The translations under genes were made by a program, and so were the position numbers. Shown one piece after another: positions 13,622 to 58,962 of a stretch of 64,000 bases of DNA. Every line of letters begins with the position of its first letter. Position 1 is the stretch's first letter. Below the pieces are notes generated by a model. That model saw only the letters and a program-made list of their open reading frames with translations, did no database searches and was not told where the DNA came from. This DNA comes from Halomonas sp. (GTDB lineage Bacteria > Pseudomonadota > Gammaproteobacteria > Pseudomonadales > Halomonadaceae). The stretch spans positions 1 to 64,000 of the forward strand of contig NZ_JAFIFK010000073.1 in assembly GCF_020832045.1 (NCBI RefSeq), written 5' to 3'.

Positions 13622-13798
13622 ATGTACGTCTATCGCATCATGCTGTTCCTGGTCTTCGGCGGCTATCTACTGTCGCCGCTGCTGATGAGCGGCTGGTCGA
13701 GCCCCGGCGTCGCCTGGTACCGCCCCTTCGTCATCTGGGGCGTGCTGATCGCCCTGACGCTGTGGCTGGAGCAGAAGAGGAAGCTCGATGAACGCTAG
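13622..13798 (+). CDS. cbrX: CbrX-like small membrane protein, translationally linked to cbrA
   Basis: A 58-codon open frame starts at ATG 13622 after GGAG and ends at TAG 13796-13798, overlapping the cbrA start by 11 bases. The product begins MYVYRIMLFLVFGGYLLSP and has two hydrophobic stretches (about 5-22 and 37-48) followed by a basic tail EQKRKLDER. Pseudomonas has a small cbrX gene at the same position that couples to cbrA translation. Position, size and overlap support the name; identification by sequence similarity was not possible here. Confidence 0.75.
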   Translation: MYVYRIMLFLVFGGYLLSPLLMSGWSSPGVAWYRPFVIWGVLIALTLWLEQKRKLDER

Positions 13799-16745
13799 CC
13801 TGGCCAGCGTCTTCGCCCTCGGCGCCGGTTTCCTGCTGCTGATGTTTCTGTGCGCCCTGGCAGTGGAGCGGGGTTGGCTCAGCCGCCGCGTGACCCGGCA
13901 CCCAGCCGTCTACACGCTGGCGCTTGGTGTCTATGCCAGCGCCTGGGCTATCTACGGCAGTCTGGAACTGGCCTCGGGCTCAGGCTATGGCTATCTGGCC
14001 TACTACCTGGGGGTGGCCGGCGCATTCCTGCTGGCCCCGGTACTGCTGGTGCCGATTCAGCGCATGACGCGCACCCACCAGCTCGCCTCCCTGGCCGACC
14101 TGTTCGCCTTTCGCTTCCGCTCGCGCTGGGTCGGTACCATGATCACCGTGATCAGCCTGCTTGCGGTCATGCCTCTGTTGGCGCTTCAGATCCAGACGCT
14201 GGGCGATGCCATCACGCTGATGACCGGCACCGCCTCCCCGGCCTTGCTGGCATTGGTACTGTGCGCCTTGATCGCGCTATTTGCGATGATCTTCGGCACG
14301 CACCAAGGCAAGGGGGCGGCCCGGCACGACACCCTGTTGGCGGTAATAGCCCTGACTTCGGTGGTGAAGCTGGTGGCCATGCTAGCGCTGGGAGCCATCG
14401 CCCTGTTCGTCATCTTCGATGGCCCTGCCGACTTGCAGACATGGCTCGACGGGCCCGGCCAGGCCTACCAGGCCAGCGTCGTGCAACCGGATGCCGCCCA
14501 CTGGCGCACCTTGCTGCTGCTGTTCTTTGGCGCCGCCCTGCTGATGCCGCACATCTTCCATATCACCTTCGCCGAGACCCTGTCGCGACATACCCTGTTG
14601 CAGGCGAGCTGGTCGCTGCCGCTGTTCTTGCTGCTGATGGCCATTCCGGTGCCGCTGATCCTGTGGGCGGGGCAACGCCTGGGTAGCCACGAGGCGGTGG
14701 GCGCCGCTTACCTGGCCTTCGGGCTTTCCGATGCCTTCTGGGTCCAGGCGCTGGCCTTTCTCGCCGGGCTGGCCGCCAGCAGCGGCACCATGGTGATCAT
14801 CGCCATGGCGCTTTCCGGCATGATCCTCAACCACATGTTGCTGGTGGCCCATCCTCCCGAGGCTCAGCCCAACCTCTATCGCTGGCTGCGCTGGCTACGC
14901 CGGGGGCTGATGGCCGCCGTCATCCTGAGTGGCTGGCTGTTCTATCGTACGGTTGGCGTCAATCACGACCTAACCACCCTGGCACTGGCGGCCTTTGTCG
15001 GCATGAGCCAGTGCCTGCCGGGCCTGCTGGCGCTACTCTACTGGCCGGGGGCCAACCGCAAGGGCATGGTGTCGGGCCTGGTGGTCGGCGTGCTGATCTG
15101 GCTCGCCGGCCTGTGGCTGCCGCTGCTGACCGGCCTGCCCACCTTGATTCTGATCCCGCCAGGACTGGAGCTTCTCGCCGGCGAGCCCGACTGGTACGTG
15201 GTAACACTGGTTTCACTGGCGCTCAACGTGCTCGTCTTCATCATCGTTTCGCTTGCCACGCGAACCTCCGAGGGCGAGCGCGCCGCCGCCGAGGCATGCT
15301 CGGTGGACGCGGTTATCCGACCCAAGCGCCTGCCGCTGGTCGCCACCACGGGCGAGGAGTTCAAGCAGCCGCTGGCCCAGGTGCTGGGCGAGGAAGTAGC
15401 CCAACGTGAAGTCGAGCGTGCCCTCACCGATCTCGGTATGTCTCCTCTCGACGGGCGCCCCTACGCCCTGCGCCGGCTACGTGATCGCATCCAGGCCAAT
15501 CTGTCCGGCTTGATGGGTCCCTCGGTGGCACAAGACATCGTCGACCGCTACCTGCCATACCGCCGCGGCGTCCAGGAACCCACGGATGACATCCATTTCG
15601 TCGAGAGCCGTCTCGAAGCCTACCGCTCGCGGCTCACCGGGCTGGCCCGCGAACTCGACGGCCTGCGACGTTATCATCGCCGCATCCTGACTCGGCTGCC
15701 GGTGGGGCTGTGTGCCTTCGGTGTCGACGATGAGCTGCTGATGTGGAATGACGCCTTGGCCGAACTGTCCGGTATCGACGGCGGCAGCGTCGTGGGGGCG
15801 CGTCGCGATGGCCTGCCGGCCCCCTGGGCCGAACTGCTGGGCCGGGCCCTGGTCGAGCCCAAGGAGCGTCTCTACAAGCGCCAGGTCGAACTCAAGGGCA
15901 GCACACGCTACCTGACCTTTCATCGCGCCGAACTACAGGCCGACGACGATGTGCGCGGCGGGGTCGTGATCCTGATCGAGGATCACAGTGAGATGAAGTG
16001 GCTAGAGGACGAATTGATGCATGCCGCGCGACTGGCCTCGATCGGCCAGCTGGCGGCAGGCGTGGCTCACGAGATCGGCAACCCGGTAACCGGCATTTCC
16101 TCGCTGGCCCAGAACTTGCGCTATGACACCGACGACCCCGAGGTGCTGGAAACCGCGCGCCAGATTCAACAGCTGACCGATCGCATCTCGCGTATCGTCA
16201 ACTCGCTGGTGGGCTTCGCTCACAGCGGCAGGCACGTCAAGGACACGCACATGGTCCCGGTGGCCATCGCTGCCATCACCGATGAGGCGCTGCACTTGAT
16301 CCAACTGGCACGCTCGGGCGAGGATGTCCATTACCGTAATCGTTGCCCTGCCGAACTGACGGTGCTCGGTGATGCCCAACGACTACAGCAGGTAATGATC
16401 AACCTGCTGAGCAATGCTCGCGATGCCAGCGAGCCGGGCGGAGAGGTCGTCATCGGCGCCGAGCCGGCAGGCGACATGCTCAAGATCACCGTCACCGACG
16501 AGGGGCATGGGCTCGACGACCGGGTGCGCGAGCATCTCTTCGAGCCCTTCACCACGACCAAGCCGCCTGGCGAAGGCACGGGCCTCGGCCTGCCGCTGGT
16601 CTACGGCATCGTTGCCGAACACCATGGCAGGATCGAAATCGAATCCCCGCCCCCTGGGCTGGAATGCGGCAGCCGCATCTCCCTGTGGCTGCCCACCGTA
16701 CGAGAGGATGGTGAACATACCGATGAGCCGGATTCTGATCGTTGA
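13788..16745 (+). CDS. cbrA: Sensor histidine kinase CbrA with SLC5/PutP-like transporter domain
   Basis: CbrA is the membrane sensor of the CbrAB system that controls carbon/nitrogen balance and carbon catabolite repression. The 985-residue protein has an N-terminal sodium/solute-symporter-like region with about a dozen membrane segments (1-about 490), a cytoplasmic PAS-like domain (about 630-740) and a kinase core. The phosphorylated histidine is H761 in [11 protein letters not shown]; the N box (LLSNARDAS) and G boxes ([15 protein letters not shown]) are intact. It overlaps cbrX by 11 and cbrB by 23 bases. In Pseudomonas the symporter domain binds or transports histidine. Confidence 0.93.
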
Positions 16746-18114
16746 AGACGAAGCCATCATTCGCACTGCGCTACGCAGGCTGCTGGAGCGCCATGACTAC
16801 CAGATCAGCGAGGCAGGCAGCGTAGATGAGGCACTGGCACTGGAGCCGCGCACCTTCGATCTGGTGATAAGCGATCTGCGCCTGCCCGGCGAGCCCGGCA
16901 CCGACCTCATCGAGCACGCAGCACCGGCCCCGGTTCTGATCATGACCAGCTATGCCAGCATGCGTTCGGCGGTGGATTCGCTGAAACAGGGGGCCGTGGA
17001 TTACGTGGCCAAGCCTTTCGATCATGACGAACTGCTGGAAACCGTGGCCCGCGTTCTTCACCAGCAGATGTCGCATCGCCCCACACCGCCCGACATCACC
17101 GATGTCGGTGGTTCGCGTCAGCAAATGATCGGTGAATGCCCGGCAATGCAGGCCGTCTATACACGTATCCGCAAGACCGCTCCGGCCGATGTCACCGTGT
17201 TGATCCAGGGCGAGTCGGGGACCGGCAAGGAGCTGGTGGCGCGAGCGATCCATCAGCAGAGCCAACGCGCCCACGCTCCTCTCATCTGCGTCAACTGTGC
17301 GGCCATACCGGAAACGCTGATCGAGTCGGAGCTGTTCGGCCATGAGAAGGGCGCCTTTACCGGCGCCAGTGCCGCTCGTACAGGCCTGGTAGAAGCCGCC
17401 GATGGCGGCACGCTGTTTCTCGACGAGATCGGCGAGCTACCGCTGGATGCCCAGGCGCGCCTGCTGCGCGTGCTGCAGGAAGGTGAGATTCGCCGTATCG
17501 GCTCGGTGGAGACCCGCCATGTCGACGTGCGCTTGATCGCCGCGACCCATCGTGACCTGCGTGTGCTGTCGAAAACCGGCGAGTTTCGCCTCGACCTGTA
17601 TTACCGGCTCAACGTAATGCAGATCGATCTGCCCGCTCTACGCGAGCGCGAGGACGACATCCTGTTGATTGCCGACGTCCTGCTGGAGAAGGCCTGTCGT
17701 CGCCACCATCGTGAAGGGCTGCGGCTGTCGCGAGCGGCACGACGCGAGATACACGACTATCCCTGGCCCGGCAACGTGCGGGAACTGGAGAATGCCCTCG
17801 AGCGTGGCGTGATCCTCGCCGAAGGCCACCTGATTCACCCCGACGACCTGGGTCTCAGACCAAGTAGGACACCGACGCCCCGCAACGGTGTCGAGCCAAA
17901 GCCGGCGCCCAGCCCCATCGAAAGCGAAGAGTCGAGTTCCGAAGAGGACCTGTCTCTGGAGGACTATTTCCAGCATTTCGTGCTCGAGCACCAGGATCAC
18001 ATGAGCGAGACGGAGCTCGCCCAGAAGCTGGGGATCAGCCGCAAGTGTCTGTGGGAACGACGCCAGCGCCTGGGGATCCCGCGCAAGAAGCAGACCCGGC
18101 GCAGCAGTGCATGA
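16723..18114 (+). CDS. cbrB: Sigma-54-dependent response regulator CbrB
   Basis: CbrB is the NtrC-type activator partnered with CbrA. The 463-residue protein has a receiver domain with phospho-acceptor D51 (VISDLRLPG) and KPFD, an AAA+ domain with Walker A GESGTGKE (163-170), the sigma-54-contacting GAFTGA loop (210-215) and Walker B (LFLDEIGE), and a C-terminal Fis-type helix-turn-helix ([19 protein letters not shown]). I chose ATG 16723 for the conserved [11 protein letters not shown]; an in-frame ATG at 16708 is possible. A strong terminator follows, then the CrcZ-like locus it probably controls. Confidence 0.94.
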
Positions 18115-18143
18115 AAAAAACGTGAGCTCTAAGACTAATGTCC

Positions 18144-18180
18144 AAGCGCCTTCGACAAGCGGTCGAAGGCGCTTTTTTAT
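18144..18180 (+). terminator. Intrinsic terminator after cbrB
   Basis: A perfect 13-bp stem (18144-18156 with 18162-18174) with a 5-base loop is followed by a run of T. It ends the cbrXAB transcript 30 bases after the cbrB stop and separates it from the downstream RNA gene. Confidence 0.9.
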
Positions 18181-18204
18181 GCCCAGCCAGTCAATTCTGC
18201 ACCA

Positions 18205-18314
18205 GGTGTTACCTTACCACCCAGAACTTGCCCCGACTTGGCGCAAGCCGGGTAACACATTCGTCTTTCCTCGCCGGGGCGCATTCGGAGCGAAACAGCA
18301 GGTAACTGTTTTAC
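18205..18314 (+). promoter_or_regulatory. Putative CbrB upstream activating sites
   Basis: GTGTTACC (18206-18213) and GGTAACAC (18251-18258) form an exact 8-bp inverted repeat with a 37-base spacer. A third related site, GTAAC-TGTTTTAC, occupies 18302-18314. They lie about 150, 105 and 50 bases before the predicted RNA start, an enhancer-type arrangement for a sigma-54 promoter. TGTTAC/GTAACA half-sites are what I recall for CbrB in Pseudomonas; binding here is inferred. Confidence 0.6.
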
Positions 18315-18330
18315 ATGGAATTTAAGAGCC

Positions 18331-18349
18331 TTGGCACATGCCGTGCAAC
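18331..18349 (+). promoter_or_regulatory. Sigma-54 promoter of the CrcZ-like RNA
   Basis: TTGGCACATGCCGTGCAAC matches the sigma-54 pattern, with the -24 GG at 18333-18334 and the -12 GC at 18345-18346 separated by exactly 10 bases. The predicted start of transcription is about 18358. CbrB, encoded directly upstream, is a sigma-54 activator. Confidence 0.85.
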
Positions 18350-18357
18350 ATTCATGG

Positions 18358-18856
18358 CAAGAAAAACAACATCCGGCTGTCACCCGAGCCAACAACAAGA
18401 ACAAGGCATTGGAGAGACAGGGCCTGCGCCAACAACAATAACGGCAGGCTGTGAAGAGGATGCGGCTAGGGGCGACAACAACAAGATGCCCCGGAGAGAG
18501 CCGCCCTTCGCTATGAGTGCAACAACAACAAGACATGAGCGAAGCACCGGATCCATCAGGACGCGACGCGCCAACCCCGGCCCAGAACAACGACAACGGC
18601 CGCAAGAGCGCACCTTCGGCAACAATATCAACAAGCCGAAGGGTGGCATATCTCCTATGCCGTCGTGGTTGGATTATTGTTTTGAATACGAGGCGGTCGC
18701 AACCAGGAACGTCAACAATCACAACAACATTGTTGCCTGTGAATCTTGGTGACTGTGGTGCGTATTCAAGGCGATGCGCCATCACGAAGAAGAAACAGCC
18801 GCAAGGACGCAGCACCATTTAGCTTGTCAGAGGAGGCCCATGTGCCTCCTCTTTTG
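18358..18856 (+). ncRNA. crcZ: CrcZ-like Hfq/Crc-sequestering small RNA
   Basis: A non-coding interval of about 500 bases between cbrB and pcnB, the position of crcZ in Pseudomonas. It has its own sigma-54 promoter and ends at an intrinsic terminator. It holds eight clear CA motifs of the AANAAN type: 18359-18370, 18391-18405, 18431-18442, 18475-18485, 18521-18533, 18584-18597, 18621-18635 and 18714-18728. A ninth, weaker motif is at 18784-18797. They are separated by GC-richer spacers able to form stems. In Pseudomonas, CrcZ (about 360-410 nt) titrates Hfq/Crc through such motifs and relieves catabolite repression. This RNA would be somewhat longer. Exact ends are inferred, and no database comparison was possible. 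Confidence 0.82.
18829..18856 (+). terminator. Intrinsic terminator of the CrcZ-like RNA
   Basis: A 9-bp perfect stem (18829-18837 with 18844-18852) with a 6-base loop runs into TTTT. It lies downstream of all CA motifs and upstream of the pcnB promoter candidate. Confidence 0.85.
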
Positions 18857-18901
18857 CTATATCGATGCTGTATTTCCCCGCCGCGGAAATCGCAGGCCGC
18901 T

Positions 18902-18929
18902 TTGCAAGGTGTCGGCGGTCCGCTACACT
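18902..18929 (+). promoter_or_regulatory. Candidate sigma-70 promoter for pcnB
   Basis: TTGCAA (18902-18907), a 16-base spacer and TACACT (18924-18929) lie about 37 bases before the pcnB start, just after the sRNA terminator. Confidence 0.5.
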
Positions 18930-18965
18930 CTAGTACTTTCGCACACTGCGAGTCGAAATCGCCGC

Positions 18966-20363
18966 ATGTTCAAAGGATTTACCCGCTTTCTGCAGAGCCC
19001 TGGCACACACTTGAGGACGCTTTTCGGTCCCCAGGACGCTCCCGGGGGGCAGACAGGACCCCGTATCATTCCTCGCGACCAGCACCCCGTGTCGCGCCAG
19101 CACTTCAGCGAATCGGCGCTCAAGGTACTCTACCGCCTGCACAATGCCGGATTCGAGGCCTACCTGGTCGGCGGCTGTATCCGCGATTCGCTGCTGGGCA
19201 AGATGCCCAAGGACTTCGATGTCGCCACCGATGCGACACCGGAGCAAGTGCGTGAGCTGTTTCGCAACTCGCGCATCATCGGACGACGCTTTCGTATCGT
19301 TCACGTTCGCTTCGGCCGTGAAGTGATCGAAGTCACCACCTTTCGCGGCACCCACAACGACGAACACGGCGACCACATCGCCCAACAGTCGGATCAGGGG
19401 CTCCTGCTTCGCGACAACGTATGGGGCAGCATTCAGGAAGATGCCATTCGTCGCGACTTCACGGTGAATGCCCTGTACTACAGCATCGCGGACTTCTCGA
19501 TCCACGACTTTGCCGATGGCATGCGCGACATCGAGTCCCGCACGCTGCGCCTGATCGGCGACCCGGCCGTGCGCTATCGTGAGGACCCGGTACGCATGCT
19601 GCGTGCCGTGCGCTTCGCCGCCAAGCTGGGCTTTCATATCGCGCCGGCGTCGGAAAAGCCAATCGCCGAGATGGCCCCGCTGCTGTTGCAGATCCCACCC
19701 GCCCGGCTCTTCGATGAAGTGCTCAAGCTGTTCATGGCCGGGCATGGCGTCGAAACCTTCCGCCTGCTGCGGCGGTACGGCCTGTTCGCCATGCTCTTCC
19801 CCGAAACCGATGAAGCCATGGCCGGACAGCCATGGGCCGAGTCGCTCATCGAGCACGCCCTGGCCAGCACCGATACGCGAATTCATGAGGAGCGACCGGT
19901 GACACCGGCTTTCCTTTTCGCCGCTCTACTGTGGGCTCCCGTACAGCGCCGCCAGGCCGCTCTGGAAGAGGAAGACTTGCCGCCGATCCCGGCGCTGCAG
20001 CTCGCCTCGCAGCAGGTGCTGGCGCGCCAGCTGCAGCATATCTCGATTCCCAAGCGCTTCAGCATGCCGATGCGCGATATCTGGGATCTGCAGCAGCGCC
20101 TGCCACAGCGGCGCGGTAAACGCGCCCAGCAGAACCGTGAGCACCCGCGCTTTCGGGCCGCGTACGACTTCCTGTTGCTCCGCGAGGCCTCAGGCGAGAT
20201 CGAGCCCGGCCTGGGCGAGTGGTGGACCGCCTACCAGGAAGGCGACGAGCATGAGCAGCGCCGTTTGCTCGAGAAAGCCGGTGCCGATGCCGGGCCAGGC
20301 GGAAACGTACGCCGTAAGCGGCCACGCAAACGGCGACGGCGCAGCTCACCCGGACCTTCATGA
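18966..20363 (+). CDS. pcnB: Poly(A) polymerase I
   Basis: PcnB adds poly(A) tails to RNA 3' ends and so promotes decay. The 465-residue protein has the nucleotidyltransferase signature LVGGCIRDSLLGK (67-79) followed by catalytic DFD (83-85), the RRDFTVNALYY and RMLRAVRFAAKLGF motifs of the class II CCA/PAP superfamily, and an Arg/Lys-rich tail (RKRPRKRRRR) as in other bacterial poly(A) polymerases. ATG 18966 is chosen because the frame upstream runs back into the sRNA gene. It overlaps folK by ATGA. Confidence 0.95.
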   Translation: MFKGFTRFLQSPGTHLRTLFGPQDAPGGQTGPRIIPRDQHPVSRQHFSESALKVLYRLHNAGFEAYLVGGCIRDSLLGKMPKDFDVATDATPEQVRELFRNSRIIGRRFRIVHVRFGREVIEVTTFRGTHNDEHGDHIAQQSDQGLLLRDNVWGSIQEDAIRRDFTVNALYYSIADFSIHDFADGMRDIESRTLRLIGDPAVRYREDPVRMLRAVRFAAKLGFHIAPASEKPIAEMAPLLLQIPPARLFDEVLKLFMAGHGVETFRLLRRYGLFAMLFPETDEAMAGQPWAESLIEHALASTDTRIHEERPVTPAFLFAALLWAPVQRRQAALEEEDLPPIPALQLASQQVLARQLQHISIPKRFSMPMRDIWDLQQRLPQRRGKRAQQNREHPRFRAAYDFLLLREASGEIEPGLGEWWTAYQEGDEHEQRRLLEKAGADAGPGGNVRRKRPRKRRRRSSPGPS

Positions 20364-26866: not shown

Positions 26867-27136
26867 TTAGCGACGCAGACCGAGGCGCTGGATGAGAGCC
26901 TGATAGCGCGACAGATCCTTGCGCTTCAGGTAGTCCAGCAGCTTGCGGCGCTGGTTGACCATGCGGATCAGGCCACGACGCGAGTGGTGATCCTGCTTGT
27001 TGGTCTTGAAGTGATCCTGCAGGCCATCGATGTTGGCGCTCAGCAGAGCCACCTGAACCTCGGGGGAACCGGTGTCGTTGTCGCCACGCGCGAATTCCTT
27101 GACGATTTCGGCCTTCTGTTCAGCGGTAAGTGCCAT
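26867..27136 (-). CDS. rpsO: 30S ribosomal protein S15
   Basis: S15 binds 16S rRNA early in small-subunit assembly. The 89-residue protein has the canonical length and motifs: [34 protein letters not shown] and the basic end. ATG 27136 gives the family's MALTAEQK; an upstream extension of 11 codons is not supported. It lies between truB and pnp, the standard order. Confidence 0.98.
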
Positions 27137-27236
27137 CTGTTTCTCCAGTAAGCAATATGCCTGAAACATGAATGTATGAGACCACGCATATTTGCAGTCT
27201 CGGACGTCTCTTCCTCACAGGCAGCTACGCTGCCCG

Positions 27237-33370: not shown

Positions 33371-33447
<77 letters not shown>

Positions 33448-33583: not shown

Positions 33584-33670
33584 TGGTGCCGAAGGCGGGA
33601 CTTGAACCCGCACGACCGTAAGGTCACTACCCCCTCAAGATAGCGTGTCTACCAATTCCACCACTTCGGC
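33584..33670 (-). tRNA. leuU: tRNA-Leu (anticodon GAG)
   Basis: An 87-base class II tRNA with long variable arm and encoded CCA. The anticodon stem CTATC/GGTAG encloses loop TTGAGGG, giving anticodon GAG. The acceptor stem GCCGAAG/CTTCGGC is perfect. It lies between secG and the initiator tRNA, as leuU does in E. coli. Confidence 0.96.
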
Positions 33671-58582: not shown

Positions 58583-58962
58583 GGGGGCGACATGGCTTCG
58601 ACGCCGATGACAACCTCCTAGGTGCATGCCGAGAGCGTGATGTATCTCGTAAATCCAACATCACGACTAAATAGTCGCAAACGACGACAACTACGCTCAG
58701 GGCGCGCTGGCAGCTTAATAGCTGTTAGCTTCTAGTCCGGCCCCAAAGCGATGTGCCCATTCATCGCAGAGGGGATATGAGCTAAAGATGATGGGATCGC
58801 GGTTGGTGGTGTCCTCTCGCCAATCGCTAAACCTTAGAGGAATCGCGTAGCTGGATCCTGCCCGTTGGAGCCAGATGCGTTAAACCAAAAAACGGACCTA
58901 AGCATGTAGAGCCGAAGAGCGAGTGTCGGCGGACGCGGGTTCGATCCCCGCCGCCTCCACCA
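58583..58962 (+). ncRNA. ssrA: Transfer-messenger RNA (tmRNA)
   Basis: A 380-base one-piece tmRNA. The 5' GGGGGCG pairs with 3' CGCCTCC before ACCA, with the G3-U70 pair that directs alanine charging. The T loop GGTTCGATCC and the 5' GACATGGCTTCGACG are canonical. The resume codon GCA is at 58677-58679, and the reading frame encodes the tag (A)ANDDNYAQGALAA ending at TAA 58716-58718. The tag has three extra residues (QGA) compared with the Pseudomonas ANDDNYALAA. Confidence 0.96.

Follow-up and report, generated by a model that had tools for sequence, protein, structure and literature searches.

A candidate CrcZ-type Hfq/Crc decoy RNA with its own 3' domain between cbrB and pcnB in Halomonadaceae

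The window, i.e., the whole stretch of 64,000 nucleotides of a Halomonas sp. contig that was analyzed, contains the order cbrA-cbrB-RNA-pcnB, and all locus features described here lie on the forward strand. The genes of the sensor kinase CbrA (13788..16745) and the NtrC-type response regulator CbrB (16723..18114) are followed by an intrinsic terminator 3' of cbrB (18144..18174), which separates cbrB from a predicted CrcZ-type RNA of approximately 498 nt (18359..18856). Next comes pcnB, encoding a poly(A) polymerase (18966..20363, with the ATG at 18966 taken as start). Both regulators are full-length counterparts of the Pseudomonas CbrA-CbrB pair and are encoded together: CbrA is 49% identical to CbrA of Pseudomonas fildesensis over its length and CbrB 63% identical to CbrB of the same species, in which the two are encoded in the same order. 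CbrB of Halomonas maura shares 83% identity with that of the window. Pfam finds kinase and sigma-54 activator domains in CbrA and CbrB, and it names no transporter domain (E ≤ 0.001) in the transporter part of CbrA. A search of the window against Rfam returns an S15 leader, two tRNAs and a tmRNA (27080-27205, 33374-33447, 33587-33670 and 58583-58962), all of which are ordinary.

A sigma-54 -24/-12 promoter, TGGCACATGCCGTGCA (18332..18347), which is conserved in relatives, precedes the predicted RNA, and an intrinsic terminator (18829..18852) with a conserved stem (96.8% of the cells paired) closes it. The CA-rich segment is hence enclosed by a promoter starting at 18332 and a terminator at 18829-18852, as a preliminary description of this DNA had claimed. 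The predicted 5' end at 18359 is based on the promoter and the conserved AAGAAAAACAA, and the predicted 3' end on the terminator. CbrB-type boxes are present as well, although the preliminary description does not mention them. Subsite F1 (TGTTAC) occupies 18207..18212 and subsite R2 (GTAACA) 18252..18257, 39 nt after F1; the published consensus is TGTTAC-N12-14-GTAACA-N15-19-GTAACA, for which an F1-R2 distance of 33-39 is allowed (PMC8871633). No clear subsite R1 is seen between F1 (18207) and R2 (18252) of the window.

All AANAAN motifs that had been listed for the segment are there, with an offset of 0-3 bases: AAN runs start at 18359, 18391, 18431, 18477, 18521, 18586, 18621/18630, 18714/18723 and 18787. 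Between 18359 and 18795, they form nine clusters with eleven runs of at least two AAN units, six of which comprise at least three units. The first run, AAGAAAAACAAC (18359..18370), is located at the predicted 5' end and is followed by a second one at 18391..18405; the ninth motif, AAGAAGAAA (18787..18795), is weak. AACAA occurs 16 times in the 498 nt. Its dinucleotide shuffles (2000) contain 1.6 copies on average and never more than 6, and a 500-nt stretch elsewhere in the window (both strands, 50-nt steps) has three at most. These two comparisons rule out chance A-richness. A protein-coding gene is rejected as well, since the broken frames and the indel lengths in relatives do not suggest coding sequence: the frame of a 145-amino-acid open reading frame (ORF) of the window contains a stop in 30 of the 31 aligned relatives, and 361 of the 456 indels relative to the window are not multiples of three. 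Open stretches are on average 110 amino acids long versus 79 in single-base shuffles, which we attribute to the AAN repeats.

Across the 31 aligned RNAs, 168 out of 295 CA runs fall in hairpin loops, compared to 49.8 expected from shuffles of the spacers in which the motifs stay in place, and the folding energy has a mean z of -6.1 against spacer shuffles (20 shuffles per sequence in both cases). Multiple CA (AANAAN) motifs are thus predicted to be unpaired. In the window, runs 3 (from 18431), 4 (from 18477) and 5 (from 18521) are predicted in the loops of hairpins at 18422..18449, 18469..18492 and 18506..18544, respectively, the last of which covaries in the family. Run 6 (18586..18591) is associated with a two-step stem that covaries in the family alignment, and a further predicted hairpin (18613..18643) carries the runs at 18621 and 18630, with five of its seven counted pairs changed on both sides. 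RNAalifold predicts 67 pairs for the 31 RNAs, including 23 with changes on both sides. Five pairs that appeared accidental (three joining the 5' to the 3' end and two isolated ones, none of them changed on both sides) were dropped before counting. For the 62 pairs kept, 96.9% of the cells are paired versus at most 51.5% when slid, and the two-sided changes (23 pairs, 129 cells) exceed those in shuffles (14.3 and 39.0). Three CA hairpins can be aligned in all of these RNAs, and each of their four helices covaries; the CA hairpins further 5' are too variable for alignment. Between two CA hairpins, GGACGCGACG at 18559-18568 is nearly invariant in the 31 relatives.

The most conserved part of the RNA is a long hairpin at 18663..18788, a 3' domain that is absent from the preliminary description and that is found only in the family of the window. 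Its apical part holds the CA runs of 18714..18728. At its core is a nearly invariant 15-bp helix between ATTGTTTTGAATACG (18676..18690) and CGTATTCAAGGCGAT (18761..18775), in which 99.6% of the cells are paired and 10 of the 15 pairs never vary; in the helix above it, four pairs covary. Both counts relate to 36 of 56 extracted sequences, the 20 omitted ones being mostly near-duplicates. A DNA search with 18655-18800 in 293 genomes of the order finds 12 genomes of the same family among the matches listed, together with seven hits outside the family that are scattered and just 24-32 nt long. Two stretches of the domain, with five or eight edits allowed, have no match in other families, and the domain is single-copy in its own genome. 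As the sequence is fixed on both helix strands, a partner may bind there or the RNA may be processed there, and the 3' domain probably adds a further role to the RNA, i.e., stability, processing or a second partner. Downstream, a small hairpin at 18796-18813 exposes a GGA in its loop that is invariant in the 31 closer relatives. This hairpin resembles what we take to be a CsrA/RsmA site; a fixed pattern for it missed many family members, and a CsrA/RsmA-type site is not claimed.

To assess conservation more broadly, we compared 61 genomes of the family of the window (f1), which we take to be Halomonadaceae: the regions behind cbrB in the 46 genomes with CbrB (E ≤ 1e-100) and the regions before pcnB in the 15 without. 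In 60 of the 61, AAN-run clusters reach significance (p < 0.01 for four or more units in a 450-nt window), so the CA motifs are indeed conserved among relatives. The conserved 3' core is present in 45 of the 46 genomes with cbrB and in 13 of the 15 without, and the sigma-54 element, represented by one regular expression, in 43 and 13, respectively; two of the three misses among the former have a near-consensus element. The third is G024, which also lacks the CA cluster. This genome encodes CbrB and a Crc-like protein, its cbrB and pcnB are apart, and a CA RNA is found neither behind cbrB nor before pcnB. The CbrB box pair behaves differently: it occurs in 45 out of 46 genomes with cbrB (spaced by 29, 39-40 or 49 nt, near whole helical turns) versus none of the 15 genomes without (L181-L195), even though the latter have CA clusters before pcnB and 13 of them retain both the 3' core and the sigma-54 element. 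CbrB is therefore not required for retention of the RNA, and another input must exist in these genomes. Our first reading, several independent losses of cbrB, was dropped on the basis of a PcnB tree, on which the absence of cbrB needs only two changes (two to three in bootstraps). The contrast between boxes and cbrB thus represents one or two events rather than fifteen, given a tree of 192 columns of which the rooting is unsure owing to a long outgroup branch.

A candidate for such an input is a second promoter element. TGCACCA (18198..18204), which resembles an NtrC half-site, lies at -134 when counted from where the -24 element begins, and its first base is nine bases upstream of that of TGTTAC. 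[TC]GCACCA, located between -132 and -136 or between -142 and -146 relative to the -24 element, is present in 30 of 45 family promoters with cbrB and in all 13 without, compared to 0.2% in shuffles. It is found at that place in none of the 39 regions with a script-found promoter among 50 sampled outside the family, and TGCACCA occurs elsewhere in only one of these 39 (L141). The glnA promoter of the same genome (L206) has four exact copies of the element, in the orientation TGGTGCA, within approximately 170 nt upstream of its sigma-54 element. By itself the heptamer is not rare, as it occurs 13 times in the window when both strands are counted. The RNA may therefore also respond to nitrogen, an input that would have been kept after the loss of CbrAB. 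In pseudomonads, hut is jointly controlled by CbrB and NtrC (PMC8871633).

The preliminary description proposed a CrcZ-type RNA outside Pseudomonas and suggested a search with the CrcZ covariance model. That search gives no match to Rfam family RF01675, neither in the window (gathering cut-off), nor in 18100-18960 or the own genome (both E ≤ 10), while all seven control loci (P. fildesensis, Serpens and five of family f21) match at 272-357 bits. Membership of RF01675 is thus ruled out, and the RNA of the window is to be regarded as a positional and mechanistic counterpart of CrcZ. The proposal of a CrcZ-type RNA is otherwise supported by the gene order, boxes, promoter, CA motifs and terminator. 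With CrcZ, CrcY and CrcX of Pseudomonas and Azotobacter, the RNA shares CbrB subsites (F1 and R2 only), a sigma-54 promoter, CA motifs, a terminator and the lack of an ORF; with Pseudomonas CrcZ, it also shares the position between cbrB and pcnB and a genome that encodes Hfq and a Crc-like protein. It differs from CrcZ in the conserved 3' domain of the Halomonadaceae RNA and in the TGCACCA beside the CbrB box. The expectation of a longer RNA with more motifs is borne out, as CrcZ of P. aeruginosa counts 407 nt and six A-rich stretches (PMC4063720) versus approximately 498 nt and nine clusters here. A second, CrcY-like copy was not seen in the own genome with the AACAANAACAA pattern, a weak and limited test. 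In the sample of 293 genomes of the order, 14 have an RF01675 match over the cut-off (11 in f21 and three in f2) and 68 have one at E ≤ 0.01 under stricter filters, with matches below the cut-off in several further families. Since the strongest matches occur in f21, this family was taken for Pseudomonadaceae. Of the genomes of the window's family in this sample, one, G036, is matched, at an E-value of 8e-4 and below the cut-off. Four f8 genomes (G067, G218, G239 and G259) show matches below the cut-off away from cbrB; they may have a CrcZ-like RNA that is unlinked to cbrB.

The presumed protein partners are encoded in the same genome, in which our search finds one Hfq and one Crc-like protein. 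The gene of the latter adjoins pyrE and is divergent from it, and its product shares 47% identity with the one encoded at this position in the f21 genome G152. Against PDB, Crc (4jg3) is matched at an E-value of 2e-75, while the best match, 2myi, is labelled exodeoxyribonuclease III, a label that NCBIfam also assigns to both the Crc-like protein and its f21 counterpart. All 61 family genomes have the Crc-like protein, with an internal stop in four of the matches. The genome contains ten AACAANAACAA sites, two of them inside the RNA. A script finds some open-frame start codon near seven of the other eight, and four (L198, L199, L200 and L204) are likely sense gene starts in our own judgement, in a count that is small, post hoc and without a chance rate. 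L199 precedes a gene of the benzoate-CoA-ligase family, whose cluster also encodes an enoyl-CoA hydratase as well as, identified by eye, an acyl-CoA dehydrogenase-like protein and an ABC transporter; L198, 8 kb away, precedes a hydrolase gene. Such sites at gene starts fit putative Hfq/Crc targets. At L205 (G000:C8:8500-24500), an aromatic catabolic cluster of acyl-CoA type has CA motifs in two of its start regions, which makes it a possible Hfq/Crc target.

Our main reading, to which we assign a probability of about 0.88, sees in this segment the gene of a CrcZ-type Hfq/Crc decoy RNA that belongs to Halomonadaceae and is driven by CbrB. Upon exhaustion of good carbon sources, activated CbrB would bind TGTTAC/GTAACA and drive the sigma-54 promoter. 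The resulting RNA of about 500 nt would form a series of hairpins, and many of its some nine CA clusters would be presented in their loops. These clusters would draw Hfq, with Crc, off the CA motifs that catabolic mRNAs carry at their start codons, and its removal would lift catabolite repression. The reading is founded on the order of the genes, the boxes and promoter, the motifs within a conserved and covarying structure, the terminator, the Hfq and Crc-like genes and the absence of the boxes where cbrB is absent; from these we infer transcription, activation by CbrB, binding of Hfq/Crc and an effect on targets. New in this would be an RNA outside the Rfam family that has an extra 3' domain and occurs more widely than had been described. 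Nearly invariant as it is, this domain exceeds the needs of a decoy and as such counts against the reading, as do the failure of the Rfam model to match, the lack of a clear R1 and the retention of the RNA without cbrB. A broader proposal, which we consider less likely than not, is that of a two-domain regulator in which the CA hairpins act as Hfq/Crc decoy and the 3' hairpin binds another partner. It would integrate carbon via CbrB and nitrogen via the NtrC-type element, with the second input acting alone after loss of CbrAB, and CbrAB-CrcZ control would be a trait of the whole order rather than of Pseudomonadaceae.

The same 3' domain is the starting point of the best surviving rival, which we nevertheless consider improbable: the RNA would mainly be a base-pairing sRNA acting through this domain, with Hfq on the CA loops as a chaperone and decoy activity as a secondary effect. 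In the 36 sequences, the 15-bp helix hardly varies on either strand, more than structure alone requires. However, a helix is predicted for precisely this stretch, which is therefore not an open seed, and the CA runs seem more numerous than a chaperone site would require. Less probable still, the segment would serve pcnB as a long 5' leader (attenuator), in which the CA hairpins or the 3' domain would control PcnB and not act in trans. The RNA remains upstream of pcnB even without cbrAB, the order of the genes is ancient, and no part of the RNA is closer to pcnB than its conserved 3' domain; on the other side, a conserved terminator stem and T-tract separate the RNA from pcnB, the matches to CrcZ below the cut-off in the four f8 genomes lie away from cbrB, and CA arrays behind a sigma-54 promoter would suit an Hfq decoy better. 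That the intergenic sequence is A-rich by chance or holds a short protein gene, for which the 145-amino-acid ORF and the open stretches exceeding single-base shuffles might be invoked, is made very unlikely by the shuffles, the conservation, the covariation and the broken frames.

Such RNAs are not specific to halophile-type genomes, the setting named in the preliminary description: similar loci exist in most sampled families of the order. CbrB relatives are found in 241 of 293 genomes at E ≤ 1e-115, of which matches near the limit (e.g., in f27) may be other NtrC-type proteins. Outside the family of the window, we sampled 50 regions, i.e., 44 genome regions behind cbrB taken from the better-scoring rows listed and six named loci; two of the 50 (L036 and L163) represent one genome, that of Gilvimarinus agarilyticus (Cellvibrionaceae). 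Of the 50 regions, 43 have significant AAN-run clusters (p < 0.01), and in 38 of these 43 a sigma-54-like element lies just upstream of a CA run. Counted by family, clusters occur behind cbrB in 26 of the 30 families sampled, or 25 out of 29 when f21 is left out. The misses are L032, L132, L134, L136, L137, L154 and L162; in six of these seven, pcnB is not found nearby, and the RNA may therefore have moved. CbrAB has been called exclusive to Pseudomonas and Azotobacter, or to Pseudomonadaceae (PMC8871633, PMC6296734), whereas the CbrB relatives detected here spread through the order, beyond Pseudomonadaceae.

In the open-access literature, no title on CrcZ outside Pseudomonas and Azotobacter appears among the matches listed; priority is unproven, with subscription papers mostly outside this scope. 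Likewise, searches of that literature gave nothing for CrcZ with Marinobacter or Cellvibrio or for CbrB with Halomonadaceae, nothing to the point among the matches listed for CrcZ homologs outside Pseudomonadaceae, and only matches off topic by title for Hfq/Crc catabolite repression in Halomonas. Transcripts of cbrAB have been reported in seawater (PMC5073097). Catabolite control by Hfq/Crc is a model for post-transcriptional carbon choice that is described as a trait of Pseudomonas and Azotobacter. If our reading is true, the same switch acts in a far larger set of marine and halophilic bacteria, including production hosts such as Halomonas for polyhydroxyalkanoates (PMC9049629, of which the text available to us makes no CrcZ claim for Halomonas). 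The absence of the boxes wherever CbrB is absent raises the question of how a regulatory RNA outlasts its regulator, and the family-specific domain that of what else the RNA does. Finally, six loci in other families (L139, L155, L159, L160, L168 and L169) carry two to three head-to-tail units behind cbrB, three of them in L139, each with promoter-like elements and CA runs.
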